Assembly (NCBI GenBank): GCA_021432635.1
Contig: MU270033.1
Span: 855,272 to 919,271, forward strand
Source: Thozetella sp. PMI_491
Taxonomy: Eukaryota; Ascomycota; Sordariomycetes; Chaetosphaeriales; Chaetosphaeriaceae
Reading direction: 5' to 3'
Length of the DNA stretch: 64,000 nt
Made by a program: the position numbers and the translations under genes. How positions within the stretch are numbered: position 1 is the stretch's first letter; the number at the start of each line of letters is the position of its first letter. Below the pieces are notes generated by a model. It had not been told where the DNA came from. It ran no database searches and was given only the letters and a program-made list of their open reading frames with translations. Below, piece after piece: positions 61 to 63,930 of the stretch.

Positions 61-1809
61 TTATTGCCACAACTGTCTCTCCCCGGCTGTCATGCCCCTC
101 GCGTCTCGGCCAGTCTTGCCGACTAGGATCTCACCCTTGGATCGAACCAGGTAATCCCCAAACCCTTTTTGTCCCGTGATTCCGCCTTCGTCCGCGTTCC
201 ATACGACTTGCCCCCTTATGATGGTGTACCTCGGCCAATTGAGCACGTTCATGCCTTCGAACGGGGTATAGTCAACCCCGTGGTGCAGGTTGGCCTGGCG
301 AATGACTCGAGATCCATCTTGGTTTGGGTGCCATATGACGAAGTCTGCGTCGTAACCGGGGGCGATGTTCCCTTTGCAGCCCTGAAGTCCGTACAGCCTG
401 GCGCCGTTTGTCGCCGTCATCTGTACGAACTGGGGAACTGACATCTTAGCTTCCTCGAAGGGTAGGCACGCCTCGGATTGGCTGAAAAGTAATGAGAGAC
501 GGGTCTCAACGCCCGGGACACCGTTAGGGATCTTAGTGAATACAGGGATCTTGCCATTGATGAGGCCCAGCTTCTTCCCCCCTGGGTGATCAAACGTGGA
601 TGGTGCGTGGTCGGACGAGATGACGGTGAAGGTATTGGTGGTGACCGCGCGCCACAAGGCGTCTAGATCCTCGGGTCTGTGACGAAGTGGAGGGGAGCAA
701 ACTGCCTTGGCTCCGTGGAAGTGACCATCGTAACTATGGGTATGGTCATGGCCGCTGTGGTCATGACCATTCTGTTTGCCGTCTTGGTGGCCGTTCTGGT
801 GGCCATTTGACAACGCTGGCTTGCCCTTGAGTTCTTCCGACAAGAGGAAGAGATAATGAGGACACGTCTCGGCGTGGATCGGCAGCAGTCGGGCCTGCGC
901 TTCTCGAACGTGCTGTATGGCCGACTCCGATGACATGTGCACCAGAAGAATGGGCGAGTCGACGAGTTCCGCTAGAGCGATGGCCCGATATGTCGCCTCA
1001 TCCTCCGCAATCCTCGGCCTAGCCACCGAATGGAACCAGGTGTCCATGTTCCCGTTCTTCTGCAGACCTTCTATGATGAGGGAGATCATGTCCGCGTTTT
1101 CGGCGTGAATCATGGTTGTCATGCCCAATGAGCGGCACCGCATCATGACGTAGAGCATCTCGCGGTCGTTCAGCTTCAGGGGATCATATGTCATGTACAG
1201 CTTCACGCTGGTGATGCCTTGCTCCTGTGCCAAGACCGGCAGCTCTTCGTTCAGAATTTGTTGGGTCGGGTTGGTGAGGATAACGTGGAAGCCATAGTCG
1301 CAGTAGCTCTCGCCGCGAGCCTTGTCATGGTAGGTGGAAACTACCGGCATCAGTGAGGTTTCATGCCTTTTCTGGCTGGCGAACGCGATAATGGTCGTGG
1401 TGCCGCCAGCGACAGCGCTCCGCGTCCCAGTTTCCCAGGTGTCTCCTGTGAGTGCATTGTCCTGTTGTACGTGCACATGGGAATCCACTCCGCCGGGTGT
1501 TACATATGCGCCCTGGGCATCGATGATGCTGGTCCCAGGACTACGCGGGAGATCACTACCGATGCAGCTGATCTTGCCCTGTCGGACGCCGATTTCTAGC
1601 CCAAGCGGGAGAACCTCGCTCGCCGTAGCCTAAGACGAGATTTAGCGGATGTTGTATGGCAGGGATGGAAAGCAATTGGGACAGAGACGGAAGCAAATGG
1701 TCCCAGACGGTCTCTTGGACCGGGGGGGAGCGGGCAGAAGCGGTGCTCGCTGTCACTGAGAATCAAAACTTACGATTAAGCCATTCACAATAACACAGTC
1801 AAGCTCCAT
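61..1809 (-). CDS. Hydantoinase / dihydropyrimidinase (cyclic amidohydrolase)
   Basis: Two exons, complement of 61-1629 and 1774-1809, give 534 aa. The 12-residue first exon MELDCVIVNGLI ends at a GTAAGT donor; the second opens in phase 0 after TTAG. The open frame alone starts at an internal GTG (1488), which is not the true start because VTPGGVDSHVHV is then cut. Dihydropyrimidinases and hydantoinases hydrolyse the ring of dihydropyrimidines or 5-substituted hydantoins to N-carbamoyl amino acids in the cytosol. Visible signatures are the metal-binding DSHVHV (His63, His65), the lysine expected to be carboxylated in SVKLYMT (about Lys155), IHAENADM, AETCPHYL and SSDHAP. An unusual His/Gly/Asn-rich insert lies at about residues 286-318. 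Hydantoinase is favoured over dihydropyrimidinase because a D-carbamoylase and a D-amino-acid oxidase gene are close by; the exact substrate is inferred. Confidence 0.9.
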
Positions 1810-2350
1810 TCTGTGTAGCTAGCATTGCGTGCTTGACAAGTAGTCGGCTAGGGGTAGCGAAGCAAAGTGCAGACCTCTTCGGTATTCTTTTATGCACCCA
1901 AAACGGATTCTCTCCCTTTGCAGGCCGATAAGCTGCGCCCTAACCTAGTAGCTTTTGGGGCGTTAAGGAGCTTGTAGAAGCCCTGAATGGGGCTGGCCCC
2001 CATATCGCAGGCGGGTGGGCTAGATTAACGGCTGCTGCTCCCGCGCTACGCCGCCCCTTCTGCCGTGACCCGCACGGCCAACTAGTTTCTGTGAAAAAGG
2101 GCCTGTAAGCTTAGCGCCGGCGAACCGCTAAGCTCAGTGTCCGCACCCCTTGGCCGTCTCGACTGGGGTGTTCCCGCTACGTGCAATGCGCTTCTAGTGG
2201 CTGGCGTGGTGCGCAATGACGGGAGACCTACCTTCGGCCGGCCCTCCAAACTGCATCGTGGGGCAGTAAATAGGGAACATCCCTTGTGGCAATTGGCGTC
2301 GCCCCCCAGCATAGCTCAGAGCTCTCAGTTATATTCTAAGAGGGTAAAAA
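1810..2350. promoter_or_regulatory. Divergent intergenic region, hydantoinase / D-amino-acid oxidase
   Basis: This 541-bp stretch separates two divergent ATGs and must hold both promoters. A CAAGTAGTCG element followed by CTAGGGGT lies at 1837-1855, just upstream of the hydantoinase start, and recurs upstream of the amidohydrolase gene. A TATATTC-like stretch lies about 20 bp before the oxidase ATG. No other gene was recognised. Confidence 0.45.
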
Positions 2351-3675
2351 ATGTCAAAGTCCTTCGTAGTTCTCGGCGCGGGCGTCGTCGGCATCTCGAC
2401 AGCTGTCGTGCTGAAGGACCAACACCCGGACGCGGCGGTCATTGTGGCGGCCCAGTACTTTCCCGGTGATCGACACCACACCTACACCTCGCCGGTCGCC
2501 GGCGCCAATTGGCTCTCAGTCGCCCTGGATAATGGGTGACAGGAGGTCTGGGACCAGGTCACTTACCAAAGGTTCCTGGAACTTGCCCTCAAGGGGCACG
2601 AAACGTGGGTAGAGCGCATCGAGATTCGCGCCATCTACGATAGGGAGCCCGAGGATGCTGGTGTGCTGAGTGAAACCACCAACAAGATTTGGTACGAGAA
2701 ACTTGTGGGCGGCTTGCGGATGCTTCCCAGAGACGCACTTCCGTCAGGCGCCAAGTTCGGTTACGAGGCCGACTCGTTCGTTGTCAACACTCAGATCTAC
2801 CTTCCTTGGTGAGTTCATAGTTGGTTCTTTTCCTGCCTAGAATAAGCACTGATAAGTGAAAGGTTGCAAGGAGAGGCGCGGAAAAGGGGCATCGAGATGC
2901 ACAGGCGAACCTATATTGACATTAAGGAGCTGTTCGATGACTACCCCGAGGCGACGGCATACTTCAACTGTACGGGAATAGGCGCCGCGAAGCTGGGAGG
3001 GGTGCAAGACGCTGCTGTCTATCCTACAAAGGTGCGCCGTGGTATCTGCAAATTCTAGAGGTTCATCCACTGATACGTTGCCATCTTCTGCCAATAGGGA
3101 CAGGTTCTCCTCGTCGAGTCGCCCAAGGTACCGCTCCAGCGCATGTATTTCCGCTCCCCTCGACGCGTCGACAACGACACGACCTACATATTCCCCCGCG
3201 GTACGACTGGTGGAGTCGTTCTCGGCGGCTGCCGATGGGACCATGCATGGGACGGAGACATTGACCCGACATTGGCCGAAGATATTAAGCGACGATGCTG
3301 TGCTCTGGCACCTGAGCTAGGGCGGCCAGAAGATCTGAAAGTGATCTCCCACAGTGTTGGGCTGCGGCGTAAGTCATGACGAGCGCTCCATCTGAAACCA
3401 TTGAAGCTCGTGTTTCTCTTTCTGCCTCTTTTAGGCCCTCTTTAGCTAACCAATATCTGTAGCGAGCCGGAAGGGGGGTGCTCGTATCGAAAGGGAGCAG
3501 TTCGGCAGAGCGCTAGTCATTCACAACTATGGGGCTGGCGGAGCAGGATATCAAGCTTCCTGGTAACCTCCCCCTGCGTATCGAGGCGGTGGGATTATGT
3601 GCTAACTTAGAGCCAATTTTTAGGGGTATGGCACAAGAAGCTGCCAAACTTCTACTGAGCGATTCCCGTCTCTAG
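2351..3675 (+). CDS. D-amino-acid oxidase, peroxisomal, with one in-frame TGA
   Basis: Exons 2351-2808, 2863-3031, 3098-3368, 3463-3562 and 3624-3675 join in consistent phase to 350 codons. The family is FAD-dependent and converts D-amino acids to 2-oxo acids, ammonia and H2O2. Evidence: N-terminal FAD-binding VVLGAGVVGIST, PGD and SPVAGANW, then NCTGIGAAKLGG, the DAAO signature region VISHSVGLRP (formed across the exon 3/4 junction), HNYGAGGAGYQASWG and a C-terminal Ser-Arg-Leu peroxisomal signal. The odd point is a TGA at 2537-2539, after residue 62, while the frame, splice sites and motifs downstream are all kept. It aligns with an Arg/Pro position of yeast DAAO (remembered), so a CGA-to-TGA change would explain it. 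It could be a recent pseudogene, a sequence error or a read-through codon. Family call is firm; activity is uncertain. Confidence 0.82.
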
Positions 3676-3864
3676 ACTCCATTGATACCTCTCACGGACA
3701 GATGGCTGAAGGTCAGACAAGGAATGCCGTATCGCAGTTACATTTTCCTGCTCTTTGTCTGCTCGTAGATACCTGAAAAGAAGAATATTCCTATTAATGT
3801 TCGAGAACACTTGAATCGCAATTGTAATATTCATAAGGGCTACCCTGCCTTGGGCTTTCTTGTA

Positions 3865-5319
3865 TTATACATATTGCCATCCTCGTGTCAGCGGCTGAGC
3901 ATTCACTGAAGAATCTTTCCTAATTCTTGCAATAGCCTCTCTCGCATCCGCCTTAATTTTTTCTTCATCCATCCGCGTAAACTTTCCGCCATCCACGAGA
4001 ACTTCGCCATCGACGATCACCATGTCCACGTCCCGACCTGACATACTATGCACGACGATTGTGGTGGCTGGCTGGCCGCCCTGGCCCAGAGTGAGCGGAT
4101 CGTATGGGGCGCAGTGAAGCCCAGTGTGATCGAGGACCACAATGTCCGCTTTCTTGCCCACCTCCAAGCTTCCAACCTCGTGGTCAATCCCAAGAGCTTT
4201 AGCAGCGTTGATGGTGGTCATCTCGAGGATCTGCTCGGCCGAGAGCGCAGTCGCGTCTTGGAGCTTCGCCTTGTGGATGATGCCGGCCAAATGCATATCC
4301 CGGAACAAGTCGTGGCGGTTGTTGCACGGCGCACCATCCGAGCCGATGCAGACATTGATGCCCTCTTGTAGCATGCGTGGGATTGGGGCGATGCCGTCTG
4401 CCAGCTTTGCATTGCTGGTCGGGTTGTGCGCAACCGAAGTCTGTGTATCGCGGAGGATAGCAAAGTCCTTCTCGTCGAGGTGCACCATGTGTCCGAGGAC
4501 AACATGTGGCCCTGTGGAGTTGACATTTCTCAGAAACTCTGCGGGCGTGGCTTTGTAATGCTCTCGGATCATTTCAAGGTCCTTCGCTGCCTCAGAACAG
4601 TGTATCGTGAGCCGAATGTTGTTCTCGGCGCATGCCGTCCCCACCGCCTTGAATCCCTTCTCGTCCTGACCGCGCGGCGTCTCCGGGGCCATCCAGATGT
4701 GCATACGGTCGTTGTAGGTTCCGTGGAACTCGCCGTGCGCATCAAGCGCCTTCTCTACCGACATCATCTCTCCTTGGGAGTCTCGACTATCGGGGATCCC
4801 GGCAGAGGGGTCGCTCCGCCGGATTTTGACGAGCTTGCCTACGCAGGCGCGGATGCCGGACTCTCCAATGGCCTTGACGATACCTGAAAAGGGATTGTCC
4901 GGGGAGGACGGGAGCATGGGTTCGAGGAAGCACGTTGTTCCGCTTTTGAGCATCTCGGCGACGGTCAGTCTTGCCGCGGCTTCGCCGTCGCCGTCGCGGA
5001 AGGCTGATTCCAGCGGCCAGATGGCACAAGACGCCCAGGCGTGCAGCTCCAGATTCTCTGCGAGACCGCGCATGACGGACTGGATGAGGTGCACATGGCC
5101 ATTGATTAACCCCGGCATGGCGATTCTCTGACGGAGGTCAACTCGATGCGCGTCATCGGGGATCTTGCTCGAAGCCTGGAGCTCGTCTGTCTTGCCGACG
5201 GCGGCGATGCGGCCGTCTATCACGAGAATCGCCCCATCGAGGATGATGCGTCGGGCCGAGTCAACTGTGATGATAGTGCCGTTGTGGTATAGCTGAGCAC
5301 CCATGGCGATCTCGTGCAA
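3865..5319 (-). CDS. Amidohydrolase of the ATZ/TRZ (SsnA/guanine deaminase-like) family
   Basis: A single exon encodes 484 aa. These metal-dependent hydrolases deaminate or dechlorinate aminated N-heterocycles. The sequence shows PGLINGHVH (metal ligands His75, His77), IHCSE (His240), GHMVH (His277/His280), VAHNPTSN and IGSDGAP (Asp328), the full ligand set in the expected order. The N-terminal and C-terminal segments (NGTIITVD, GKKADIVVLD) form the usual beta-sandwich domain. It lies tail-to-tail with the D-amino-acid oxidase and head-to-head with the N-carbamoyl-D-amino-acid hydrolase. Substrate is not readable; an aminated heterocycle feeding the hydantoinase route is a guess. Lack of introns contrasts with its neighbours. 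Confidence 0.88.
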   Translation of the reverse strand: MHEIAMGAQLYHNGTIITVDSARRIILDGAILVIDGRIAAVGKTDELQASSKIPDDAHRVDLRQRIAMPGLINGHVHLIQSVMRGLAENLELHAWASCAIWPLESAFRDGDGEAAARLTVAEMLKSGTTCFLEPMLPSSPDNPFSGIVKAIGESGIRACVGKLVKIRRSDPSAGIPDSRDSQGEMMSVEKALDAHGEFHGTYNDRMHIWMAPETPRGQDEKGFKAVGTACAENNIRLTIHCSEAAKDLEMIREHYKATPAEFLRNVNSTGPHVVLGHMVHLDEKDFAILRDTQTSVAHNPTSNAKLADGIAPIPRMLQEGINVCIGSDGAPCNNRHDLFRDMHLAGIIHKAKLQDATALSAEQILEMTTINAAKALGIDHEVGSLEVGKKADIVVLDHTGLHCAPYDPLTLGQGGQPATTIVVHSMSGRDVDMVIVDGEVLVDGGKFTRMDEEKIKADAREAIARIRKDSSVNAQPLTRGWQYV

Positions 5320-5924
5320 AGCGACAGGGTATGCGCGGTTGTTCTCTTGGGACGATTATGTCATTGATGGCATGAATACAGCCCAAGTAGGGTAGAGACA
5401 GGTACCGAGAAGCTAATGGGGCGCGAAGCGCTCAAGTAGTCGCGTCTAGGGGTTTCCTTAGTTCCTCCTCAACTTGTGTATGTCTATCTCTACTCCGCAT
5501 TGCCTTTTTCTCATTGGCTTACGTTTCCCTCATCTACTCTGTCGTGTCTTCTACAGTACCCCCCCACCTGCCCCCTCTGCCCCGCCTGGCTCGAGATAAG
5601 GTAATGAAGTGCATGGCGTACCTCAAGTTGGCCGTCGGGTTAGCCCGATTCAAAATTTCCGGCTGCTAGCCGCCAGCCGACTGCTGCCCGCACCCCGCCA
5701 TCGATCGGCCAATGTAGTATCGGCCGACCCATCGCAGGGGCTCACAACCAGGGCACGACGCAGCGCCAGTTCCAAAGACCGTCCGTGATCACGAGCAATG
5801 TTATTTTGAAGAAAGCCCTCTATATTATACTGCGCATGTGGCATACCATTCGGCACCCTAGTTTACGGTTAAGCCAAGGCACCTGGTGTATGTATCGCTA
5901 ATAGCACCCATTTGAAACGCAAAC
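5320..5924. promoter_or_regulatory. Divergent promoter region, amidohydrolase / D-carbamoylase
   Basis: This 605-bp region serves two divergent genes. The second copy of CAAGTAGTCG...CTAGGGGT lies at 5433-5453. A TCGGCCGA-CC-CATCGCA element at 5720-5736 matches one upstream of the MFS permease at 15 of 17 bases. A GATAAG (AreA/NIT2-type nitrogen-regulator core) is at 5595-5600, and a TATATTATA stretch at 5821-5829 lies about 100 bp before the carbamoylase ATG. Function of all sites is inferred from sequence only. Confidence 0.45.
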
Positions 5925-7004
5925 ATGACCGTGGTAGCGCAGGCTCCCAAGCGCCTTCTGGCGGTCGCTGCCGCCCAGATGGGGCCTATACAGCTAAACG
6001 ACTCTCGCGAATCCGTTCTAAAGCGTATGATAGCGCTACTCGACCAAGCCGCTGAATGTGGAGCTAAAGTTGTCGTCTTCCCGGAACTTGCATTCACCAC
6101 CTTCTTCCCGCGCCATCTCATCCCCTTCGAGGAGCTCGGCGCGTACCTCGAGGAGGAATCTGCTGATGGCGGGGTCCGCAACAGCCCCGGTGTCAAGCCA
6201 CTCTTGGACCGTGCCAAGTCGCTGGGCCTCGACGTCTACGTCGGCTATGCCGAGAAAGCCCCCCAGCCAGACGGGAGCTTCCGTAGGTACAACTCGAGCA
6301 TCTACTACTCAGCACAAACCGACAAAATTATCGGCAAATATCGCAAGGTTCATCTCCCGGGCGTGACGGAGCCATTCAAGGAGCCCGGGGCTACGCAGCA
6401 GCTGGAGAAGCGATACTTCACCAACGGAGATCTGGGGTTTCCAGCCTTCCGGGCGCCCGGCCTGGTCCCTGGTACGGCCAAAGCCGCCGATACCGCTGAA
6501 TACGCAGGCAACGAAGGAACGGGCGACCCGATCTTTGGCATGCTCATCTGCAACGATAGGCGTTGGGCCGAGGGCTGGAGGTCATATGGGCTACAGGGAA
6601 CCGAGGTGGTGTTTTGCGGCTACAACACTACCGCCTTTGCGCCTCAGCTGCTGGGCAGTCGGGAGGACATGAGCAGGGACGCAGCCGAGGCCGAGGTCCT
6701 ATTCCACCACAAGCTGTCGTGCCAGGGCAATAGCTACATGAACGCACTCTTTAGCGTCAATGTGGGCAAGTGCGGCGTGGAGGACGGCAATCCTTTGATC
6801 TCGGGGACCATCATTGTGCATCCGAACGGGCACATTATCGCCGAGTCGAAGACAAAGGAGGACGAGATTGTGTTTGCGCAGCTCGACCTAGCCGACTGCC
6901 GGAGGGGTAAGGAGAAGACTTTTGCATTCCACAAACATAGAAGACCCGACCAATATGGCATGGTAGTAGAGCGGACGGGGGTCATCGAACCAGCGCTCCT
7001 CTAA
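5925..7004 (+). CDS. N-carbamoyl-D-amino-acid hydrolase (D-carbamoylase)
   Basis: A single exon encodes 359 aa of the nitrilase superfamily. The enzyme family removes the carbamoyl group from N-carbamoyl-D-amino acids, giving D-amino acid, CO2 and ammonia. The Glu-Lys-Cys triad is visible: PELAFTTFFPR (Glu54), KYRKVHLPG (Lys141) and MLICNDRRW (Cys209), along with LEKRYF, GDLGFP, GGYNT-like CGYNTT and the C-terminal HRRPDQYG. These match bacterial D-carbamoylases (remembered from Agrobacterium) much better than general nitrilases or beta-ureidopropionases. An insert at about residues 180-200 (rich in Ala/Gly/Thr) is extra relative to the bacterial enzyme. It is intronless, divergent from the amidohydrolase, and functionally follows the hydantoinase at 61-1809. 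Possible bacterial origin is inferred. Confidence 0.92.
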   Translation: MTVVAQAPKRLLAVAAAQMGPIQLNDSRESVLKRMIALLDQAAECGAKVVVFPELAFTTFFPRHLIPFEELGAYLEEESADGGVRNSPGVKPLLDRAKSLGLDVYVGYAEKAPQPDGSFRRYNSSIYYSAQTDKIIGKYRKVHLPGVTEPFKEPGATQQLEKRYFTNGDLGFPAFRAPGLVPGTAKAADTAEYAGNEGTGDPIFGMLICNDRRWAEGWRSYGLQGTEVVFCGYNTTAFAPQLLGSREDMSRDAAEAEVLFHHKLSCQGNSYMNALFSVNVGKCGVEDGNPLISGTIIVHPNGHIIAESKTKEDEIVFAQLDLADCRRGKEKTFAFHKHRRPDQYGMVVERTGVIEPALL

Positions 7005-7065
7005 TTGCTTGGTATATTGCAATGTATATATTGGTATCTCCCACCTGCAGATAATCTCCAAACCC

Positions 7066-9552
7066 TTATGCATGACCTGCGTTACGTATATGCTGGCGAT
7101 TCCATTCGGTAAACAAAGCGTTGATACGGAGCAAGCTGGTGTCAATAAGGCTCTTCTTGCTCGCGGCGCCCCTGGCGGCCAGACGGAGGAGCCACCGCCA
7201 TTTTTGAGCCAGCAGCCGTATTTCTGTGTGAATGGCCGCGCTCCTTAGAGGAAACACGCCATGCGTGATCCTCTCCAGCTCATCCTGTAGCTGCTGGGAG
7301 TCTGCGGATAGTTCACTTTGAGGGGAGCTCATCTGTAGCAGCGGCGCGGGTGGCTGTTGATCACCATCACCTCCTTTTGGGGGTGCCGTAATGAGGTAGC
7401 AATGCATTAGAAGCGTCGATGCTAGAGCAAAGTTATGCCGTGACCCTTCGTACTCCAATGTTAGCATGAGCTATGGGGGTAATGGTACAAGACCTAGTCG
7501 AAGCATAAGGTTCTTACATTCAGGCCAAAATGCATCCCACTCCACCGTTGTTAGTTGCTCGACAAAGTTGACCAAGTCTCGCAGCCCGGAAAGCGCGCCG
7601 CGTATTACTGCTGAGGTGAACTGGGGGTTGGAGGTGAGCGAATTACCCTCAGTGTCACTGTTAGGCTGCGCGGATGGTAACGATTGCATTGATATTGGCC
7701 GAAGCAGAGCCCGGAAGATGGCAAGTTGTGCAGTAAAGAAGGCCACCCAGAGTGAGGCATTGCCATCCAGCTCATGTTTTGAGCTAACCGGATGCATAGC
7801 GCGGTCGCGGTCCTTGTACCAACTCTGCCGCAGCTCGCTGGGCAGGTTGTGGTGCCATTCTTTCAGCCTCTGCCGCAGCAACTTGGCCGCTTGGAGAGAC
7901 CCTGGTATGTTACCCGCGGTTTGGGATGCGGCACGCATCGTGAAGAAGCTGCCGACAATATCGTCGAGAATGTGGGTAAGTTGAACTAGAGAAAGGAAGT
8001 ATGAACACACGTCCCGGTCGTGGACTTCCGAATCCATGAGATCACTCTGGGTCAACGGTCGTACGTTGAATGTTTCCTTATGAAGATGGCTCGACATGCC
8101 CTGGCCAAAGGCTATCCACTTCTCCACCGTCCAAACCACCCACCATAGGCGCTTCCGGAGCTTCCTCTCCCACCTAGGAAGGGCTGACCAGTGAGAAGGA
8201 TCATCATGTAGCCCTAGGCTCTGAGCAGTCGCCACCATCTGCGAGCAGTTGGACCAGACATCGGCGTCGGCCCAGGCGGCTTTGCGGTCACGATGATACT
8301 GTAGGAGAAGCAATCGTGCCTGGAGAGCGGGAAGCGACGGATTGGAGCCCTCTTCATTCAAAACGCGCCACGAGAACTGGAACAGCTCCGAGGGCGTTGG
8401 AAGCCGCGAGACCTCAACGCAGAGGGCGTCGTCGTAAAGGACAAAAGGGATGGCTGTGGCACATATGGCGCTAAGGAGACACAAGGGCACCTCTAAGGCG
8501 CACTCGTCTCGGGTCGGCAGCTGCTGGCGGCTGATGATGGGCATGTAGGGATAGACAAAACGCATAAAAAGGGCCACCAGCCCGGATGCTGTGATCTCGT
8601 CTAGCATGTCTCGGAAATTGTCTCGAAGGTGCCGGGTCCCGCCGATCGTAGCTGTCGTCCCGTTCTTTTTTTCGCCTTCTTGGGATGACGTGAAGACAGC
8701 GGGAGGGAGTGGCCTGTACGGTCCTGTACCCAGCGGCCGCATACGGTAGTAGACAACATTGGTATACTGGGAAGTCGACCTGTGGTCGGTGCCGTAGGTA
8801 CGATGTGCGAGGAGGAAGGGGTCTAGATCACCCGAGGGCCCAACATATCCCACTGCCAGGTTTGAAAGTGTGCCTCGCACCGAGTCACCGGTTGGAGAGG
8901 AGGGATTATCTGGCTCACTTGAGTAGGGAGAGAATGCGTCTCCCCTGCTCTCGTGCCCAATGTACATCTCCTCATCTTCATCTTCGCCTTCTTCGTCCCT
9001 TTCATCTTCTTCCTGCCCGTTTTGCCCTTGTCCCACCGTCCAATCTCCGTCCTGGCCCGACTCAGGCGGTCGGTTGCCGATTTCTGATTCGGATGGCGTA
9101 GAGGCGGCGCGCGGCAACAGAACTGGTGCTTGAGAGAACTGTGATACCACCTGTCGGTCGCCGTCGTCCCCCGCGAAGCCGGCCGACGGCGACGGCTGCG
9201 GAAGGCTGTAGTCATTGCCGAAGAACTGGAAGAGGGCCTCAAGCTCCGCGTTGGCGCCGACCTGTGGGAACTCCTCGAGGTACTGATCTCCTTCCTCCCC
9301 GAGGCCGGCGGGCACGGCGGTGGGTTCGTTCATGGCGTCGTCAGCCTCGATTCGCCGGCGTTTTCGCGGGCCCGAGGCCTTGTTGAATGTGCATTGCTGG
9401 CCCTTGCTGCTGCACAGCCTACATGGCGGATGGGTGTCTATCTTGCAGCCCACCTTGCGCACGCGGCAGAGGTCGCACGGCCGGTTGCGGCGAGAGCGAT
9501 ACTGGCGCGGTCCATTTGTGTCCATTGCTGGGGGAGCGGGATGGGCTCGCAA
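7066..9552 (-). CDS. Zn2Cys6 transcription factor, probable cluster regulator
   Basis: Exons are complement 7518-9552 and 7066-7445, with a 72-nt intron (GTAAGA donor, GAAG acceptor), for about 804 aa. The N-terminal zinc cluster has six cysteines at about residues 26, 29, 36, 44, 47 and 54 (PCDLCRVRKVGC to GQQCTF), followed by a basic KRRR stretch and a long acidic segment near residues 180-200 that may activate transcription. The middle third matches the fungal-specific transcription factor domain (for example RLWWVVWTVEKW). A downstream Met at residue 10 could be the real start. It sits between the carbamoylase, 3'-to-3' with it, and the oxygenase genes, so it is a good candidate for regulating the ureide cluster; that role is inferred from position only. 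Confidence 0.88.
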
Positions 9553-10218
9553 GGTGAGGACAGGCCGTCGGCACCCGGAGGGGAAACGGCAAACTGCGCA
9601 GCAGGACCCTCACTTGGCCGGGGAGATAACAAGGTCCCGCTAGGAGGGTCCACATATGAGACCTCGGGCACACCCACATCCTCTCCACACGCCCCCCCAA
9701 CCATCCCCAGTGGAATAGCCTTGCCCTAGTCAAAGCTAGCGGATTCGCCTTGCATCTATCCCTTCTGTATCAACTTTGGGTAGGCTGCAGCGGCAACTCA
9801 CGCGACAACGATACGAAAACTACCAATTTCACTCTGGAGTCATGGAGCAGTTGGCTGGTCTCGGCCAGGCTGCAAGAGCAGCTGCCTGTGCCTGGTGAAT
9901 GAATATGTCCAAGTGGCATTCTATGCGTGGCCAGTCCCAATTTAATATGGACGAGGGCAGCCTTTCGTTAAAAGAGAGCAATGGGCACTTCAATGCGAGA
10001 CATGCCTATTCGTTATCCGTGCGGGGATCTTACTTTTGTCTACCTCCTCACTTGGGGTAGGATGTGGGGGGTCGATGTTACAGTCACCACGAGGGACAAA
10101 GTGGCATAGCCGTTAGGCCTAGCCGTTGGGCTCCTGGGGTGCATTCTTGATATCCTTGGATTGCAGATGGCATTTTACATTGTCTATCATTCCCATTCGC
10201 GGCGCCTTCGGGATTTCT
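9553..10218. other. Intergenic, regulator promoter and oxygenase 3' end
   Basis: This 666-bp stretch lies upstream of the Zn2Cys6 gene and downstream of the first 2OG oxygenase. Short overlapping frames occur but none shows a domain or convincing splice structure. No gene, repeat or RNA was recognised. Confidence 0.4.
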
Positions 10219-11567
10219 CTACATCCCTTCGACCAACACCCCGTTAATCTTGGTCATGCCCTTCGGCAGACCGGGGTTCCACTTCTCCGTGGCGGTCGGG
10301 TGCTTGTGGTGGGCGCGTTGCATCCGGCGGTTGTAATGCTCGTATGCCGTCATGCCTTGCTCGTAGCCTTCGCGAACCGGATTCTCCGGGGAGATGAATT
10401 GTGGAAGAGGCGAGACCAGTTCATCATTGTTGAGGCCAAAGAAGAAGGGGAGAGAGTACCGCGCCTTGCCGGTCTTGTTGCGCACCCGGTGCACCGTGCT
10501 CTGGTATGTGTCGTTGGTCAAGCGGGCCATCATGTCGCCCAGGTTGACGACAAAGGTCTGCGGTTCCAGCTTCGGCTTAATCCACTGGCCTGAGGCGTTG
10601 AACACCTCCAGAGACTCAATGTCGAAAGGATCTTGGGCAATCATAGTCATGACTAGACGGTTGCGGAGATAATAATTAGCATCGGGTGCATTGACTTGGA
10701 ACTGAGAGGGTTTGAAGGCCGTGTCAACTCACATTGGACGTCTGTGTGCGCTCCGAGGCCGGTCGACTCGTCATCATCGGGGGCTTGAGGAGGGTAGTAA
10801 AGTGCGCGGATACCAGCAACTGGGTACGAGGCCTTGTTGTCAAAATACGTCTCGTCAATCCCAATGACCTTAGCCATGACCTTGCTAAGCTTCCTCATCA
10901 ACCCAAGGCAAGCCGCGCGGTATTCTCGCATGGCTGGCTTAAAAAGAGGAGACTCTTCGTCCTCGGGCCACTGGTTCTTGCGATACAGGATCTCGGGCTG
11001 GTATCCGGCTCCTTCAGCGTCAAGCTCGGGCTCGTATCCGGTCGTCATAGACTCTTTCAGATCTGTGCCAAGCCGGCCGAATTAGTTCTGCTCGTCCTTA
11101 CGTGGTAGTTCCTCGGGATCGAACCCAAGAGTGATATTAGGAATGACTCGCGACGTACCTCCCTTCTTTAGTCGATCAACATTGGTATAGTACGGCTCCT
11201 CGTAGCCCATAAAGGAGGGGCTCAAGGACTGGTGGTACTTCTTCTTAACTTCCAAAGGAAGTTCAAAGAACTCCTTCGCGCCAGCAAACGCACGCTCAAC
11301 GATGGTCCAGTCGACGCCGTGGTTCTTGATAACAAAGAAGCCGACGCGTGTGCATGCATCTCGCAACTCCTCTATGAGCCGATCGAAATGTGCGGATGAG
11401 GCCGAATCTGAGTTAATGGGAGACAAGTCGATCACGGGGATCTTGTCGAACTGGCCGCCGACGCCCGAGCTAAGAGTACGGCTGATGCCTTGTGACAGCA
11501 CAAGCTTGCCGTCGATAATACCGGCGACTCCGGCCGCGACGGGCTCGGTAGTGGTTGTCTCGCTCAT
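10219..11567 (-). CDS. 2-oxoglutarate/Fe(II) oxygenase, paralog A
   Basis: Exons complement 11159-11567, 10733-11062 and 10219-10652 give 390 aa. The protein belongs to the isopenicillin-N-synthase-like group: a DIOX_N domain (IPVIDLSPIN, RVGFFVIKNHG) then the Fe(II)/2OG double-stranded helix. Fe ligands are His242 and Asp244 (AHTD) and His301 (VHRVRN); Arg311 in ARYS should bind 2-oxoglutarate. Intron phases and positions are the same as in the paralog at 12887-14170, supporting both models: the first intron uses a GTACGT donor and has a CTAAT branch point. The substrate is unknown. Its place beside the ureide genes suggests it oxidises a ring or side chain before hydrolysis, which is inference. 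Confidence 0.88.
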
Positions 11568-12886
11568 AGTGATATAGGAGGTGGGGTGTCTGATAAGGGA
11601 CGGCTACGATATCACCGAACAGAGAGGAAAAGTTCAGATATTCTGTTATTTGTTGACGGCTCTTGACAATGCCCTGGATAGCGTTGGGTCGCTGAGAGAC
11701 AGCTTAATATGTTCCAAGGCTTTGTGGCGGGAATGACCTCTACGGATACATGTGGCGTGGTTGTCGGGGCGGCGTATGGTGAAGCAGTCACCGAAGCACC
11801 GGCGGAGGCAAACCTCGCAGCGAGGAAGCTGGTACCACTGCCACCCGACGCCGGCGTGGATGTGTTCCCCCGCTGCCTTCCGCCTCCTTGGCCGCGAACT
11901 AACAATCTCTTATCGGAGCTTTGGGCGTGGCTCTAGTTATAGCGGGGTACCAACCTCCACTGCTTGTATGCAAATAAGACCCTTCTCGTGACATCCATAC
12001 AGCGCTAGCCCGTATCTCGTTAGACATTCTCTCGCTGCTTTGAATTCTCATTTACTCTCCCCTTTAACCTTATAGCGACGCTACCTCATCTACATGTTAT
12101 TATCATAAACGCCAGTCGCTCAACTACAGGGGTTTATAGCGGCCAAATAGCCCCATGGATAGTAAAGCGGCGGGAGTGTAGCCGCTTTAGTCTCCACTGT
12201 ACGAATCAGACCACACTAGATCTAGTGCTGTCGGCAAAAGCCGACTGAAGCCTGGATGGTAGACACCCCCCAGCGGAGGAGACATCGGCAACACCCTTCT
12301 ACTATAGTACGGGCATTAGGTCAAGCTGACGTGTATTGTGAAACTTCCGGCATCATATGTTTTGCGACGCCCTATGGGCGTATTGAGTCCTTAGGCTTAG
12401 CCGTCGGCGAAAGTCTATAGTCTATGAAGTGGTCTGGCTTGGGAGCTCAGTCATTTAGCCGAGATGGCCTGCCTTGCATTGTATAGGTACCTTATATCTA
12501 CTCACTTATCAGAGGGCTTCGGCTTGGGTCACCCTAGCCCTGCCATGCTGCCTAGGGCAATGGACATGACCCAGCGCCTGGCTACCCCGCTTGTGTTCCT
12601 CCACGATTCATTGCAGGCGGTTCTTTGGCCGTTGCCTATCGCGGCCAAAGAAAGGTGTGGTATGAAGTGCGCATTTTCGTCCTGGGCGGGCGACTTAGCA
12701 CAGAAACAAGCTGTAATGCTGCACAGCATGCGAGTTCGCATAGCCAGGAAAGTGACGGATCTTGACGCAATTTTGAGTATTTACGAGCTGAAGCCACCAT
12801 AAACACGACGGATACGCTCACGTATCAAATTTATGCCTAAGCGCGTCTCTTGATTAGGAGCTTATTCTAATCCGTGACCAGCCACG
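11568..12886. promoter_or_regulatory. Divergent intergenic region between the two oxygenase paralogs
   Basis: This 1319-bp stretch should contain both oxygenase promoters. A perfect 9-bp stem (TAAAGCGGC / GCCGCTTTA) with a 9-nt loop is at 12163-12189, and TCGGC-AAAA-GCCGA at about 12230-12244 is a palindrome of the kind bound by dimeric regulators. Frames at 11612-11905 and 12464-12802 show no family signature and were not called as genes. Confidence 0.35.
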
Positions 12887-14170
12887 ATGACTGTGAACTC
12901 GAACGGCGGCGGCAAGGCCGAAGTCCTAACCCTGCAGCAAGGCATTTCCCGCCGCCTCGCCACAGCTGCATCCGGGAACTTCACCAAGATTCCCGTCATC
13001 GACCTTGAGGCGCTTACGAATCCTTCAGCATCCGCCGAGGATAAGAACGAGCTGGTTGCTCAGGTTCGTGATGCTTGTACGAGGGTGGGGTTCTTTATCA
13101 TCAAGAACCACGGTATAGACTGGAAGATTGTTGAAGGTGCTTTTGAAGGCCTGGAAGAGTTTTTCAACTTGCCGCATGAGAAGAAGATGGAGATTCACCA
13201 GGACGCCTCTCCATCTTACATGGGCTATGAGCAAATGTACTACACCAACGTCGATGGGACGAAGAAAGGCGGTAGGTCGCTTTCTACGTCTCTCGCCTCT
13301 CCTCCAAAGCATGCTAAACCGTACAACAGACAAGAAGGAAGGTGTCAGCATAGCTTACAATCCGGAAATTGATCCGCAGGGTATTCCTAAGGCGGAGATC
13401 CCGGAGCTGCTGAGAAGGGAGAACTTCTGGCCAAAGCCAGAGGACTCTCCCAAGTTCCGGCGCGGCGTCGAGGCGTATCAAATTGCCTGCCTGGGCCTGA
13501 TGCGGAAACTCATCCGACTAATGGCGCTCGCCATCGGAGTTGAGGAAACTTTCTTCGACAAAAAGTCTACCTACCCAATTGCAAGCGTGCGGTGTCTCTA
13601 TTACCCGCCCCAAGAGCCCTCAAACGAGACCGAGACTGGTCTGGGTGCACATACCGATATCCAGCGTAAGTCATGGCTAGATGTAGTGTCGGAATCAGCC
13701 GGCCTGTATTCTAACTTGGGGACTCAGTGATGACCATGATTGCTCAGAAGCCCTACGATCAGCCGGCGCTTGAGGTGCTCAACGCCCAGGGCCAATGGAT
13801 CAAGCCTGTGCTGGAGGACCCAGAATGCTTCGTAGTGAACCTGAGCGATATGACGTCGCGGCTCACCAACGACGTGTTCCAAAGCACCATTCATCGCGTG
13901 CGCAATAACACGAACGGGGCCCAGTCGAGGTACTCGCTGCCCTTCTTTTTCGGACTAAACCAGGACGAAGTCACAACCACTTTACCCCAGTTTGTGACGG
14001 AGGAGAATCCGCTGCAGGAGAGATATGAACAGGGAATGACGGGGTTCGAGCACTACAACAACAGAATGCACAAGGCGCACCACAAGCATCCTCACTCTCA
14101 AGGTCAGGTTTCTGCTGCTCTGCCCGTTGGCATGAGCAGGGTGGATGGCATTGTGGTGGAGGGCTTGTAA
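12887..14170 (+). CDS. 2-oxoglutarate/Fe(II) oxygenase, paralog B
   Basis: Exons 12887-13271, 13330-13665 and 13728-14170 give 387 aa. It is clearly homologous along its full length to paralog A (shared QGISR, RDACTRVGFF, KNHG, GLGAHTD, MTMIAQ, GQWIKP, RYSLPFFFGLN, HHKHP). Fe ligands are His236 and Asp238 (AHTD) and His296 (IHRVRN); Arg308 in SRYS is the predicted 2OG contact. Both members keep all catalytic residues, so both are expected to be active. They are transcribed divergently and share the intervening promoter. Substrate is not readable from sequence; flavanone-dioxygenase-like labels from annotation would only reflect superfamily membership. Confidence 0.88.
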
Positions 14171-14872
14171 CGAGGAGACTGTTGCGTATATTTACCAAGC
14201 GTTCTTAAAAATTCTGATACCACAATCGCTCTTCTCTACTAGGTTTAACGAATCTCTACCTACATAGGGTTCCGAAGTGAAGCTACGAGAAAGCTACACC
14301 GAGCTACTGAGGATGGATCACGAAGCAGGTCACCGCTTAGAATAACGAGCTTTGAGAGTTCCCAATCTGTAATGATTCAGCTTTGTGCCACTTGACAGCG
14401 TACTGAGTATGCGCAGGTCAACCCGAACACCGTGTAAATCAGGGGGCATAGGTGGTGTGGTGTACTAAGATGCTAGACTGTGCTAGACCCACTAGAACAA
14501 AGACGTGGAGAACCACTAAAGCCAAAATCCCTGCGAATTCATCACCCACTTTAGTACGTAAGGTAGGCACTTTGTTATCGGAGATCCACCGGTGGTGGCC
14601 GCGTAAAGGGGAAAACATTGCCCCTGATAGGCCGTTGTTACCACGAGATAAGCCCACTGATCGTCGGTTCTACGCCCCCTGCCTACTACATTCTCACCCA
14701 GATAACAAACGCCCGGGGGAAAGAAGCACTTGAACCAAAGCTCTAGCTCCGAATCCGCCGCCTAAAAGTCGGCCGAGACATCGCATAGACTTCAGGTCGC
14801 CGGGAATATCAATACCCTCTCTGACCTTTGCGAATTGAAGACGCATCAGCTCTCGGCATCAGATTCGCCAAC
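14171..14872. promoter_or_regulatory. Intergenic with MFS permease promoter element
   Basis: The region contains TCGGCCGA-GA-CATCGCA at 14769-14785, about 90 bp before the permease ATG, matching the element at 5720-5736 upstream of the carbamoylase. Nothing else in this 700-bp stretch could be assigned. Confidence 0.4.
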
Positions 14873-16477
14873 ATGTTTTTCTTCACCAAGGCCAGAGAGA
14901 TTGTCTGGGGCAAGCCCGCCGCAACGAAGGAAGAGCGGCGTCTGGTTATGAAGCTGGACGCCATGATTCTGACGTTCGTGTGCCTCATGTATTGGGTCAA
15001 CTATCTGGACCGATCCAACCTGAACAATGCATACGTCTCTGGGCTCAAGGAGGATTTGGGCATGTACGGAACCGAGCTGAACCAAATCAACTCGGTCTTC
15101 TACGTCGGGTACACTTTGGGTCAGATCCCGAACAACATAGCCTTGCAGAAGATCCCGCCTCACCTCTACTTCGCCACAGCCATCACCATCTGGGGCTTCT
15201 TCACTCTCGGCACCGCCTTTGTCACAACCTGGCAGCAGGTAATGGCTCTGCGCTTCTGCGAAGGCCTCTTTGAGTCCGCCACTTTTGTCGGCACGCATTA
15301 CGTGCTCGGCAGTTGGTACAACGCCGAGGAACTTGGCAAGCGAACTGCCGTGTTTGCCGCCTCGGGCGTGATTGGCAACATGTTTTCGGGAATCCTCCAG
15401 GGAGCCATCTACACAAATCTATGTACGTTTGCACCAGCCCACGCCCCTCATCATACAATGCTCCCCACATCCGTCTACATTACCTGAGCTTCACGATGCC
15501 GCGTAACTCGAGCTAACCACGGTCCTTATAGCGGGTCTTCACGGACTGAAGGGATGGCGATGGCTGTTTATCATCGACTTTCTCATTACCATACCCGTGG
15601 CTATCTTCGGCTTCTTTATCTTCCCCGGGCACCCGGAGACCATGCGGACGAATCTACTTACGGACAGCGAAAAGCGCCTAGCGATTGAGCGCATTCCTGA
15701 GCCAACGATCAAGCGAGGAAAGCTGGATTGGGCGCTCGCCAAGCGTGTGGTGACTAGCTGGGAGTTTTACCTCCTCCCTCTATTGGCGCTGCTTGGGGGC
15801 GATACCGAAATGTACGCCGACAACTCAATCCTGGCGCTGTGGCTCAAGAGTCTGGGCACGTATACCGTGCAGCAGATCAACTACATGCCGACGGCCGTGT
15901 ACGCTCTCGCTGCTGTCTCGATCCTTGTCTGCAGTTGGTATGCCGACTACTTCCGCAACCGAAACGGCCGTGTCCATGTTGGCATATTCCTCTCCATCAC
16001 GGCCATCATTAGTGGCGCCATTATGCTTAAGCCACCAAATCACGGGGCCAAGTTCTTTGCTCTCTACCTGAACGGTATCGAACTGGGATATCGTGCGGTG
16101 ACCTTCGCCTGGGCCAACGAGATCATGCGAATGGACGATGGGAAGCGAGCCATCGTCATCGGCATGATGAATGCCATGAGTAAGAACAAATCCTTGTATC
16201 TTAGTATAGTCCCAGTACTAACCCGGTTGCAGCCATTGCTTTCTACATCTTCTGGACGCTACTTTTCTACAACACCACGCAGGGACCGGACTGGTATATG
16301 GGGAACATTGCCATGATTTGCACCGGAGTAGCCATGATCTTTTCCGCTCTTGCTGTGCGGTTCATGGAGCGGCGATCTAAGTTGCAGGCAGATGTAATTG
16401 AGGCGGAGGCGGAGGCGAGCAGCGATATCGTGAAGCCTTACCAAGCGACCAAGGTCACCTCCAAGGACTTGCCTTGA
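14873..16477 (+). CDS. MFS permease, Dal5/allantoate (anion:cation symporter) type
   Basis: Exons 14873-15422, 15532-16179 and 16233-16477 encode 480 aa. The family imports organic anions such as allantoate, ureidosuccinate and vitamins at the plasma membrane. Typical features are RRLVMKLDAMIL before the first helix, the YLDRSNLNNAYVSGL segment after it, then GYTLGQIPNN, FCEGLFESATFVG, WRWLFIIDF and a GHPET-type loop between the two six-helix halves. The ATG at 14873 is preferred over an in-frame TTG upstream. The last exon restores NAMTIAFYIFWTLLF and ends in an acidic tail. Within the cluster it is the obvious importer for a ureide, hydantoin or N-carbamoyl compound. Confidence 0.87.
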
Positions 16478-16762
16478 TGGGGATTGAGTGGTAGCAGCAA
16501 CAATACGAGGTATAACTTCAATTTATGAGATTCAATTTATGTAAGGCCAAGTTCGTGACTACTGCCTTGACTGGACGGCCAACTCCCGGGCAATGAGATA
16601 CTTGAGTGGGCGTGGGGAGTGGACTCTGGGCATAATTCTTGGCAGCGTGGCTTGGTCTGCCGGTTGGCGCTAAATAGGTCCGTACATATGTAGTTCAGTA
16701 GTCAATTTGATGTGCTTCGCAAGGGAAAGTCCGGAGAAGGTCGACACGTTATTAGAGAAGTT

Positions 16763-17786
16763 ATGACGTCCGCTCCAACTGAGCTGCAGCTCCCCGTCGA
16801 GGCACCAGACAAGGAGGCGGCAATCAATCGAAGCCCATATGCGGACTTCGCCGCGGTGGAAGCGGCGCGATCCGCGTATCATCGCCAGGCCATGTGGAAT
16901 TTGTCCAAGTCACCAAACCCTGGCTGGCAGCCCGGAGACGGCGCAAACGATGATGACTGGAAGAACCACAGATTCATGGCTATCGACCCATATGAGCTAG
17001 GAAGAGACCTTGCACTCAACTACAAACTGATGATCTCAGCAACGGTGCCTCGCCCGATCGCTTTGGTGAGCACGCTCACGGTTGACGGGAAAAATCGCAA
17101 TCTCGCGCCGTTCTCGTACTTCCAGAATGTTACCACCGACGTAGGCCATTCTTATTCTTACAAGCTGTGGTACTTCTCTCCGCTTGCTGACAGCCGCGCG
17201 GGAAGCCACCGCTGTATTCGCTCTCTTTTACAGGTCGTCAAGCCAGCGACACCGTTCAGAACATTTTAGTTACGAAGGAATGCTGCATCAGCCTGACCAG
17301 TGACTGGATCATCGAGTACGCGAGGAGTTCGAAATGGCAATGGAAAATACGTCTAACACTGTCACTAGGGCAGCAAACTTTACCTCCGTGAACACTCCTC
17401 CACACATCTCGGAGTGGAAGCTCTCTGGCCTCACCCCGGTCATGGGGCAGATAGTCAAGGCACCATACGTAGCCGAGTCCCCATACTCGGTTGAGTACAA
17501 ATACTATTCGCACCAAGATTTCTACAGTCGCGTCGAGCCTGGCGTGCGGACTGCGACCACGATCCTGGTGGAGATCGTCAAGTTCCATATCTGGGAAGAC
17601 GCGATAGGAGCAGATCGGGCGACGGCAGACATACCAAAACTTCGACCGGTGTTCCGGTGCGGCGGGATTATGTACGGCACCGCGTTTGACGGGTTCGAGA
17701 TTCCTCGGCCAGAGGCGCTCCGAAAGCTCAGGGGTGATCAGAAAGTCGACAAGATCTCGAGAGGACAAATGGAGACCGATAGTTAG
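16763..17786 (+). CDS. Flavin-reductase-like domain protein (FMN-binding split barrel)
   Basis: Exons 16763-17140, 17206-17315 and 17369-17786 give 301 aa. The first intron acceptor chosen is GGGAAG, not the GACAG overlapping the branch point, because it restores NVTTDPPLYSLSFTG, the conserved strand of the family. The domain covers roughly residues 85-270: TVPRPIALVSTL, LAPFSYFQNV, then NILVTKECCISL, AANFTSVNTPP and LSGLTPV. These are DIM6/NTAB-type flavoproteins that bind FMN and act as reductases or oxygenases. Being at the far end of the ureide cluster, it may reduce flavin or perform a redox step on an intermediate; this is inferred. Confidence 0.8.
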
Positions 17787-18583
17787 AACAGGTGCATAAT
17801 TAATCTTTTCACATGCCCGAACAGAACTGTGAGAGGAATTTCTAGTGTTCAATATTGGCATCGCGAGGTGCAGGCCTCCTAGAGTAGGCCAAAGCCTATA
17901 CAGCGGCCCCGTACTCTTCCCTCGTGGCTACAAGGAGAACCCTCATGTTGGGTTGGCCTTCTGTGCATCTTTCTTCGAAGGCTTGTTGTTCCTAAGCCCC
18001 TGAGTAAGTAATTATAGCAGCATGAACATGAAGTCAATTTCTGATCGATATATTGGATGCCATTTTTTGTCTACATGAAGTATGCGACTATGCGTGGATA
18101 CATGGAGCTAGTCCGATAAGCTGCAAGGACGTTGAGGCTGGTTAGACTGGGGTGTCTATTGGACGGCCAAGGGGGAGATTCTGACGGCCAACCTTCGCCC
18201 CGCAAGTGGAGCGAATGGTGGAGACACGGCCAACACACCCCAAACCCAACTACAAGGTATCCCCAGAAGCAGAGAAACTACCCATCTGCCCAGTTTTGCG
18301 GGGGGGTAGAAAGAGGAGTGCTGAGGGGAACGCATTATCAAAATGCATATTCGCGTTCATGCTGCAACAACGACATGTCACCGAAACTAAAAGTCTGGGC
18401 GACAAGCTGTTGGCTAAGCAGAATCTGGGCATCGGTCTGGGCATACGACCCTGGCGGGATGCGATGAGCAGGGAGGGTACAACGGTTGGATATATCAATT
18501 CAGACAGAGCAATACAATCGATGAAGCTATCCTCCTACTGCGTCTACTATACCTTGTTCTCCCTACTCTCGTGAATCGTGAAC
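17787..18583. other. Intergenic, no gene recognised
   Basis: About 800 bp follow the flavin-reductase gene. Short frames near 18132-18574 have no recognisable domain, and no repeat or RNA gene was seen. Confidence 0.35.
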
Positions 18584-62662: not shown

Positions 62663-63930
62663 ATGGACGCAGTGAGTTACCTCTGTTATGTAAACTGCAC
62701 CACAAACTGACCGCGATTTGCTGTGCTAGAAGAAAGAGTTCGTCGTTCCCCTCATCGACTTCTCGAAGTATCTGCATGGGACGCCGGCCGAAAGAGCTGC
62801 GTGCGTGCAGCAGATCATGAACGGCTTTACCACCTCTGGTTTTTTGTTGCTCCAGAACAGCGGCATAGATCCCACTCAGCTCGCTTCCGTGTACTCTTGG
62901 AGCGAGAACTTTTTTGCATTGCCCATGTCCGAGAAAGAGAAGAGGCTGAATACCGACTTTGCAGCCAACCGTGGCTACTCCCGTCTAAGCAGCGAGAAGG
63001 CTACAAATGTCTCCGCTTCGGCTGACATTGCTGCTTTACGTGCGCAGGCGCCTGACCTCAAAGAAAGTCTCGAGATGGGTAGCGAGCCGGGCCAGGGATA
63101 TCCGGACAAGCCGTTTGAGAACCCGTGGCCTGAGAAGCTTCCAGGCTTCAGGCCCGCCATGGTCGACTTTTTCAAGCGATGCGACGAGCTTCATCATGAC
63201 GTGATGGGCGCTATCGCTGAAGGTCTGGGCCTGCCTGCGGACTACTTCAAGCCTTACGCCTCGAAAGGCGATCATGTGCTGCGGCTGCTTCATTATCCGG
63301 CTATTGATCCAGAGTTATCGAAGCTGGACTCAACGGTACGGATAGGCTCGCACACAGATTACGGGTGTAAGTTGCACTGCAGTTCCCGAGCTACCTTTGG
63401 AGAATGTTGAAGCTGACGAACGGAAAGCTGTGACGCTGCTCTTCACGGACGATAGCGGCGGCCTGCAGATTCAGTATCCAGATGGAGAGTTTTACGAAAT
63501 CGACCCGGTCCCTGATGCTGTCGTCATCAATGCAGGTAAGAAGGGCATCAGCTTTCGTAGGCTGGCACTTTTGAAGTACACAGTAGTCTCACAATGGACA
63601 GGCGACCTTCTCCAAATCTGGTCCAATGACACCATCAAGTCCACGCACCACCGCGTCATGCCGCCGTCCAACCCCAAAATGACTTCCGATGGGAAGGTGA
63701 AGCCTCGGTACTCGATTGCTGTAAGTGGATGCTGCCGGCACCCACCCTTTTCGATTCAGCGAGGCGGCCGCGAGCTAATGTGGTGATATGTACAGTACTT
63801 CGCACACCCGGACCACGACCTACTGCTCGACACGATCGCAACATGCTACGATCAGCTATCGAGGCCGAAGAAATACGAGCCCTTGACACCTGGCGACTGG
63901 ATGATCAAGAGACTGACCGCTACGTACTGA
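62663..63930 (+). CDS. 2OG-Fe(II) dioxygenase similar to thymine-7-hydroxylase
   Basis: Exons 62663-62671, 62730-63366, 63428-63535, 63602-63720 and 63796-63930 give 335 aa; the first exon codes only MDA. The sequence follows Neurospora thymine 7-hydroxylase (remembered) closely in order: VPLIDFSKYL, ANRGYS, LKESLEMG, LLHYPAI, HTDYGSVTLLF, GGLQIQYPDG, VVINAGDLLQIWSNDTIKST, RYSIAYFAHPDH and a final TATY. Fe ligands are His211, Asp213 and His268 (HHRV), and Arg287 in RYS is the 2OG contact. The enzyme would hydroxylate the methyl group of thymine stepwise or a related small molecule. Pairing with an NCS1 permease supports a nucleobase role, but related dioxygenases act on other substrates, so the specific activity is inferred. 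Confidence 0.85.

Follow-up and report, generated by a model that had tools for sequence, protein, structure and literature searches.

We analysed a 64,000-nucleotide window of contig MU270033.1 from the ascomycete Thozetella sp. PMI_491 (assembly GCA_021432635.1, positions 855,272 to 919,271 of the forward strand), in which positions 61–17786 hold a candidate gene cluster for the breakdown of a hydantoin-type cyclic ureide. Gene models were built by hand from the window sequence in a splice-aware manner with GT-AG introns, which gave nine spliceable genes within 18 kb, all with proper ends (Table 1). The reading frame is open in eight of the nine, the exception being the D-amino-acid oxidase (DAAO); introns are absent from ATZ and DCASE and number one to four in each of the other seven genes. 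Across the nine proteins, Pfam searches identified Amidohydro_1 (HYD and ATZ), CN_hydrolase, DAO, Fungal_trans, DIOX_N together with 2OG-FeII_Oxy, MFS_1 and Flavin_Reduct. The nine families that the original prediction had placed here from the nucleotide letters were all recovered at their positions by these models and searches, with the hydantoinase, DAAO and carbamoylase inside 7 kb.

Table 1. Genes, upstream regions and the DAAO stop codon in the candidate cluster (2OG, 2-oxoglutarate).
Feature	Position	Strand	Details
HYD, hydantoinase/dihydropyrimidinase	61-1809	-	534 aa; 1 intron, 1630-1773
HYD/DAAO divergent promoter	1810-2350		TTGGCCG/CGGCCAA at 2075, 2150
DAAO, D-amino-acid oxidase	2351-3675	+	5 exons, 349 codons; in-frame TGA at codon 63
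In-frame TGA in DAAO, codon 63	2537-2539	+	no intron of usable length and frame seen by eye to remove it
ATZ, ATZ/TRZ-type amidohydrolase	3865-5304	-	intronless; 479 aa from Met at 5304
ATZ/DCASE divergent promoter	5305-5924		TTGGCCG/CGGCCAA at 5628, 5706
DCASE, N-carbamoyl-D-amino-acid hydrolase (DCase)	5925-7004	+	intronless; 359 aa
TF, regulator with Fungal_trans domain and six-cysteine run	7066-9525	-	795 aa; 1 intron, 7446-7517
TF upstream region	9526-10218	-	TTGGCCG at 9614
OGA, Fe(II)/2OG oxygenase	10219-11567	-	390 aa
OGA/OGB divergent promoter	11568-12886		TTGGCCG/CGGCCAA at 11888, 12140, 12625, 12642; last two form an inverted pair
OGB, Fe(II)/2OG oxygenase	12887-14170	+	387 aa
MFS upstream region	14171-14872	+	TTGGCCG absent; variant TCGGCCGA alone, at 14769
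MFS, permease	14873-16477	+	480 aa
FLR promoter	16478-16762	+	CGGCCAA at 16576
FLR, flavin-reductase-like protein	16763-17786	+	305 aa

Three of these genes could form one chain of reactions, leading from a 5-substituted hydantoin through an N-carbamoyl-D-amino acid and a D-amino acid to a 2-oxo acid. Against 11 distinct N-carbamoyl-D-amino-acid hydrolase sequences in the PDB, DCASE scored 221–229 bits, with the next best match at 39.2 bits and chains named beta-ureidopropionase at 26–38 bits. It carries the motifs VFPELA, KYRKVHLPG, MLICNDRRW and GYNT, the first three of which aligned with those of DCases and presumably supply the catalytic Glu-Lys-Cys. Family membership supports the assignment of DCASE as an N-carbamoyl-D-amino-acid hydrolase and, with it, the predicted D-specific chain. 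HYD scored above the curated cut-off of TIGR02033 (399.2 versus 393.25 bits) and contains HVH (63), GITSVKL, MIHAEN, LLVHMSS and SSDHAP, the Lys included, which we take to be its metal-ligand motifs; its score against NF009941 (PRK13404) was 510.7 bits, short of the subfamily cut-off of 647. HYD was also considered as an ergothioneine-type hydantoin-5-propionate hydrolase and rejected in that role (193.6 bits against a cut-off of 650). A scan of genome contigs with poor HYD peptides gave 15 distant loci at 23–31% identity. At residues ~287–318 this metal-dependent hydrolase has a His-rich insert, with 10 His among the 50 residues that start at 283, possibly a metal-binding loop; dihydropyrimidinase 2fty too has a longer stretch at this position. 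The best relative of DAAO was 7ct4 (220 bits, residues 3–342 aligned), followed by 1c0i at 158 bits; DAAO matches PF01266 at 113.6 bits and has the FAD motif GAGVVG. It ends in SRL, a PTS1-like tripeptide, in agreement with its description as a peroxisomal-type enzyme. Unlike 7ct4, it sits with ureide enzymes and carries a stop codon.

Searched as 478 aa, without the Met at 5304, ATZ had atrazine chlorohydrolase 4v1x as its best solved relative (210 bits) and 5'-deoxyadenosine deaminase as its best NCBIfam model (361.6 bits against a cut-off of 522); none of the 25 NCBIfam models listed reached its cut-off. FLR matches PF01613 (Flavin_Reduct), and its best solved relative was 3bpk, NTA monooxygenase component B, at 74.5 bits. 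OGA and OGB, each with DIOX_N and 2OG-FeII_Oxy domains, are 58% identical over 374 columns, and OGB had 9ovh as its best solved relative at 135 bits, with thymine dioxygenase at 68 bits. The permease, originally described as Dal5-type, matched only MFS_1 and, below their cut-offs, broad transporter models. The regulator had been called a Zn2Cys6 protein: its Fungal_trans domain and a C-X2-C-X6-C-X7-C-X2-C-X6-C run seen by eye fit this, although its match to the Pfam model of zinc-cluster DNA-binding domains fell short of E 0.001.

These assignments, together with the promoter word and the bacterial loci described below, suggest a co-regulated fungal catabolic cluster through which a hydantoin-type cyclic ureide serves as nitrogen source, a reading to which we give a probability of about 55%. 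The cluster is real and probably works as a unit in its lineage, as a eukaryotic form of the hyu clusters of bacteria. The permease would import the ring or a precursor; ATZ probably strips an amino or imino group from the ring precursor, and modification of the substrate by the 2OG oxygenases and FLR probably also precedes ring opening. HYD would then cleave the hydantoin ring, giving an N-carbamoyl amino acid from which DCASE would take off the carbamoyl group (as ammonia and CO2) to leave a D-amino acid, and DAAO, probably in the peroxisome, would convert this to a 2-oxo acid with release of ammonia and hydrogen peroxide. Activation of the genes probably falls to the Zn2Cys6-type protein, working through TTGGCCG sites. 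We infer the order of ring opening, decarbamoylation and oxidation from the families, which agree in stereochemistry, a matter of family knowledge rather than of assay. As for the hydantoin or cyclic-ureide catabolism originally proposed, a D-specific chain by family, the catalytic motifs, the promoter 7-mer and the bacterial loci speak for it; the substrate may be hydantoin, a dihydropyrimidine or another cyclic ureide.

To assess shared control, we compared the cluster's six upstream regions, 4163 bp in total, with 1000 first-order Markov shuffles and with 1000 sets of equal-length chunks from positions 21000–63900, coding sequence included. The commonest 7-mer in the six promoters was CGGCCAA/TTGGCCG, with ten copies in five of the six regions. 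Any 7-mer with at least ten copies arose in 1 of 1000 shuffled sets and in 7 of 1000 chunk sets, and ten copies in five regions in none of either (0/1000 each). The window holds 26 copies of the word, 19 of them in the first 18.3 kb (nominal p 3.4e-6); no other 7-mer with eight or more copies was so extremely split in the ten segments tested. These 19 comprise ten in promoters, six in coding sequence and three at 18164–18227; the next copy is at 23683. The cluster genes are apparently under shared control, for which TTGGCCG is a candidate cis element. The word contains CGG, which zinc-cluster proteins often read. The three copies at 18164–18227, just right of FLR, lie within 70 bp and have no obvious gene to serve. 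Fixed-spacing pairs of Zn2Cys6 half-sites, CGG-15-CCG and CCG-9-CGG, occurred in four of the six promoters and are not claimed, because shuffles reach five regions for some spacing. The 10-mer AGTTGGCCGT, whose three copies in the window all lie in promoters of the cluster, was not kept as evidence because some 10-mer was present in at least three regions in 11 of 400 shuffled and 130 of 400 control sets.

We then turned to the neighbourhoods of bacterial DCase genes. The first sample consisted of 398 genomes from the phylum of genome G001, of which 21 had a DCase at E <=1e-30, in 30 places after split matches were merged; all 30 were taken with <=9 kb per side, and these stretches were searched by phmmer at E 1e-4 with the proteins of the window as queries. 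A second sample served as a check: of 385 genomes from the class of genome G142, 68 had a DCase at E <=1e-50, in 102 places, and 40 of these were picked by hand down the ranking to the 76th, leaving out sample 1 genomes. FLR-like genes lay near the DCase at 5 of the 30 loci (L064, L070, L072, L074 and L075; 0.22 expected from 47 matches in the ~121 Mb of the 21 genomes) and at 6 of the 40 (L088, L089, L094, L095, L119 and L126; 0.25 expected from 55 matches in ~160 Mb), or 11 of 70 against about 0.5 expected. ATZ-type amidohydrolases were found at 10/30 and 12/40 loci, the latter against 0.79 expected given 172 matches, a number that includes pieces of one gene, and a HYD-type gene (>200 bits) at 19 of the 40. 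Tail probabilities for such counts are only a guide, because of the relatedness of the genomes and because different programs gave the background and the locus counts. Amidohydrolase, hydantoinase, DCase and flavin reductase genes occurred together at L064 and L075 in the first sample and L088 and L089 in the second; since the DCases of L088 and L089 are 88% and 76% identical to that of L075, the two are its close relatives and the four-family loci amount to ~2 independent cases. DAAO-like and 2OG-like genes were present at 0/30 and 0/40 loci, and in none of the 74 bacterial DCase loci searched in all. The FLR-like frame adjoins or overlaps the DCase frame at L070, L072, L074, L075, L088, L089, L094, L119 and L126, and L074 also has Aminotran_3 and Hydantoinase_B proteins nearby.

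It is conceivable that the nine genes are chance neighbours, or pieces of an unrelated secondary-metabolite cluster, since fungal clusters of that kind often contain genes for 2OG oxygenases, MFS proteins and Zn2Cys6 regulators. Three families of one chain inside 7 kb, a promoter word common to the cluster genes and the co-location of four of the families in bacteria argue against this, and we consider it very unlikely.

In a tree of 35 DCases, DCASE grouped with eight bacterial ones (L016–L018 and L055–L059; support 100/99) on a branch of 1.71. We make no claim of gene transfer, because the branch is long and the tree includes no fungal sequence. Seven of these eight loci have an ATZ-type amidohydrolase. 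Among the loci studied in more detail, L016, L018, L055 and L057 share ABC-transporter genes and a polysaccharide-deacetylase-family protein, which at L016 is a weak match to the allantoinase PuuE (66 bits against a cut-off of 424.6); L016, L017 and L057 encode an Asp/Glu-racemase-family protein. The recurrent locus of L016, L018, L055 and L057, which has ATZ-type amidohydrolases and is free of HydA, is possibly an undescribed ureide pathway.

Hydantoinase and D-carbamoylase genes lie close together in bacterial hyu clusters as they do at positions 61–7004 here, and this pair, described originally as classic in bacteria, is documented for Aminobacter sp. DSM24754 and Arthrobacter crystallopoietes in PMC3546935. 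The fungal cluster differs from such clusters in having introns in most genes, divergent promoters, a Zn2Cys6-type regulator, DAAO and 2OG oxygenases. Loci L064, L075, L088 and L089 resemble it in uniting HYD-, DCASE-, FLR- and ATZ-type genes; unlike it, they lack DAAO and 2OG oxygenase, show ~25–42% identity where measured, and mostly have an amidohydrolase of another subfamily. The Sulfitobacter plasmid locus L019 (gene order DCase, racemase, hydA, TRAP transporter, flavin reductase) shares the HYD-, DCASE- and FLR-type genes but has an amino-acid racemase and no amidohydrolase. Hydantoinase/oxoprolinase proteins are another family than HYD. No fungal hydantoinase–carbamoylase–DAAO cluster was found in the full-text literature searched, which covered few subscription journals. 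Two papers that pair hydantoinase with Fusarium (PMC5737690, PMC9505000) concern hydantoinase/oxoprolinase proteins, and the application of Trigonopsis variabilis cells to substituted-hydantoin hydrolysate, mentioned in PMC2628649, is a pairing made in industry, with no gene cluster involved. Clustering of hydantoinase and D-carbamoylase is known from bacteria; what sets this case apart is its fungal setting with DAAO, 2OG oxygenases and a zinc-cluster-type regulator.

Several observations weigh against a co-regulated cluster for hydantoin-type ureides. The promoter word was picked after the fact and from one genome, and the MFS promoter has no copy of it. Shared descent with the bacterial genes, or the same function, is also made less likely by the comparison. 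The bacterial FLRs near DCase genes are 27–35% identical to FLR, and at nine of the 11 loci, L119 and L126 being the exceptions, the same genome has a different gene that matches FLR better. ATZ-type neighbours are 24–31% identical to ATZ where measured; of ten that were scanned, seven best matched the chlorohydrolase-family model PRK06151, none reaching its cut-off of 416, while those of L092 and L127 best matched 5'-deoxyadenosine deaminase, as ATZ does, and that of L090 another model. In the eight loci of the clade nearest to DCASE, no HydA above 200 bits was found within ~9–10 kb, the HydA search giving a dihydroorotase at L016 (107 bits) and a 29-bit match at L055. The bacterial DCases closest to DCASE may therefore work in a ureide pathway that is related but not the same.

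The same genes bear on whether the cluster dismantles an amino-substituted or otherwise modified heterocycle, either a natural product or a xenobiotic, with ATZ deamination and 2OG/flavin chemistry coming first and the hydantoin steps forming the lower half. The closest matches of ATZ are atrazine chlorohydrolase and deaminase models, and its relatives lie beside bacterial DCases more often than expected, and at seven of eight loci in the sister clade of DCASE. Set against this, the substrate of such a route is not readable from sequence, ATZ falls below the cut-off of every NCBIfam model listed and most of the bacterial ATZ-type neighbours tested belong to another subfamily; we find this account doubtful. 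A tentative possibility is that a bacterial module not yet described, made up of ATZ-type amidohydrolase, hydantoinase, D-carbamoylase and flavin reductase, has its fungal counterpart in this cluster. The module would dismantle a specific natural aminated or oxidised imidazolone or hydantoin, and to it the fungus would have added DAAO, the 2OG oxygenases and a TTGGCCG-reading zinc-cluster regulator.

HYD raises a further difficulty for hydantoin as the substrate. Its best solved relative was the dihydropyrimidinase 2fty (365 bits, aligned over residues 4–512), bacterial D-hydantoinases scoring 297 bits (1k1d) and less, and from sequence it cannot be told whether HYD acts as a hydantoinase or a dihydropyrimidinase. 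In a pyrimidine-type catabolism, HYD would act on dihydrouracil or dihydrothymine and DCASE on the resulting N-carbamoyl-beta-amino acid. The similarity of HYD to 2fty is shared with reductive pyrimidine catabolism, and the distant match of OGB to thymine dioxygenase is consistent with it. The fungal cluster departs from that pathway in its nitrilase-type D-carbamoylase and its DAAO; yeast beta-alanine synthase belongs to another family than nitrilase-type D-carbamoylases. DCASE is far closer to N-carbamoyl-D-amino-acid hydrolases than to beta-ureidopropionase chains (up to 229 bits, as given above), and the DAAO family acts on alpha-D-amino acids, both of which make the pyrimidine route unlikely.

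The chain of the hydantoin reading is also not intact as read, because the frame of DAAO is broken by its single TGA; the 'complete chain' to a 2-oxo acid first proposed holds for gene content and fails on this point. The stop, entered as X, aligns with an ordinary residue of 7ct4, ungapped and with homology on both sides, which indicates a nonsense change or a sequence error and not an intron. By eye, the closest GT-AG piece that would remove it measures 22 nt and causes a frameshift; longer introns were rejected because they would delete sequence aligned with other DAAOs. This DAAO copy is either a pseudogene or a sequence error. The last step may have been lost, may be performed by another DAAO or may be intact if the stop is a sequence error. 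The single stop in an otherwise intact gene would also suit a cluster in decay, or a pathway that has come to stop at D-amino acids, which with DAAO lost are made and not oxidised. We think this quite unlikely: the other eight frames are open and all four DAAO introns retain GT-AG ends, so any loss would be recent, unless the stop is a sequence error.

A last point against the hydantoin cluster is that some bacterial hyu clusters have a hydantoin racemase, whereas none was found among the nine fungal models, the whole window not having been profile-searched for one. Hydantoin racemase is frequent, not universal, in bacterial hyu clusters. Its absence here is not decisive, because some 5-substituted hydantoins are known to racemise spontaneously and the window cuts the left side of the cluster: HYD ends only 60 bases from the edge, so that more genes, a racemase included, could lie beyond.

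On the right, a multicopper oxidase (laccase-like) gene adjoins the cluster (19012–20645, minus strand, with the Pfam match on 19578–20645), in a stretch between 18.3 and 23.6 kb that has no TTGGCCG. Farther along, an open frame of 2254 codons at 29628–36389 (minus strand) looks by eye like an ankyrin-repeat protein with an NTPase domain. A membrane protein at 59559–60506 (minus strand) resembles a purine-cytosine permease by eye and had no Pfam match at E 0.001; a DIOX_N 2OG oxygenase lies near it at 62730–63407 (plus strand), possibly as a second nucleobase-related group.

A regulated eukaryotic cluster of hydantoinase, D-carbamoylase and DAAO would offer a tractable route to the natural substrate of these enzymes, and the fungal enzymes may serve D-amino-acid production. 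The recurrence of flavin reductase and amidohydrolase genes at bacterial DCase loci points to a common upstream chemistry. If the module of ATZ-type amidohydrolase, hydantoinase, D-carbamoylase and flavin reductase proves true, hydantoinases would gain a physiological role.

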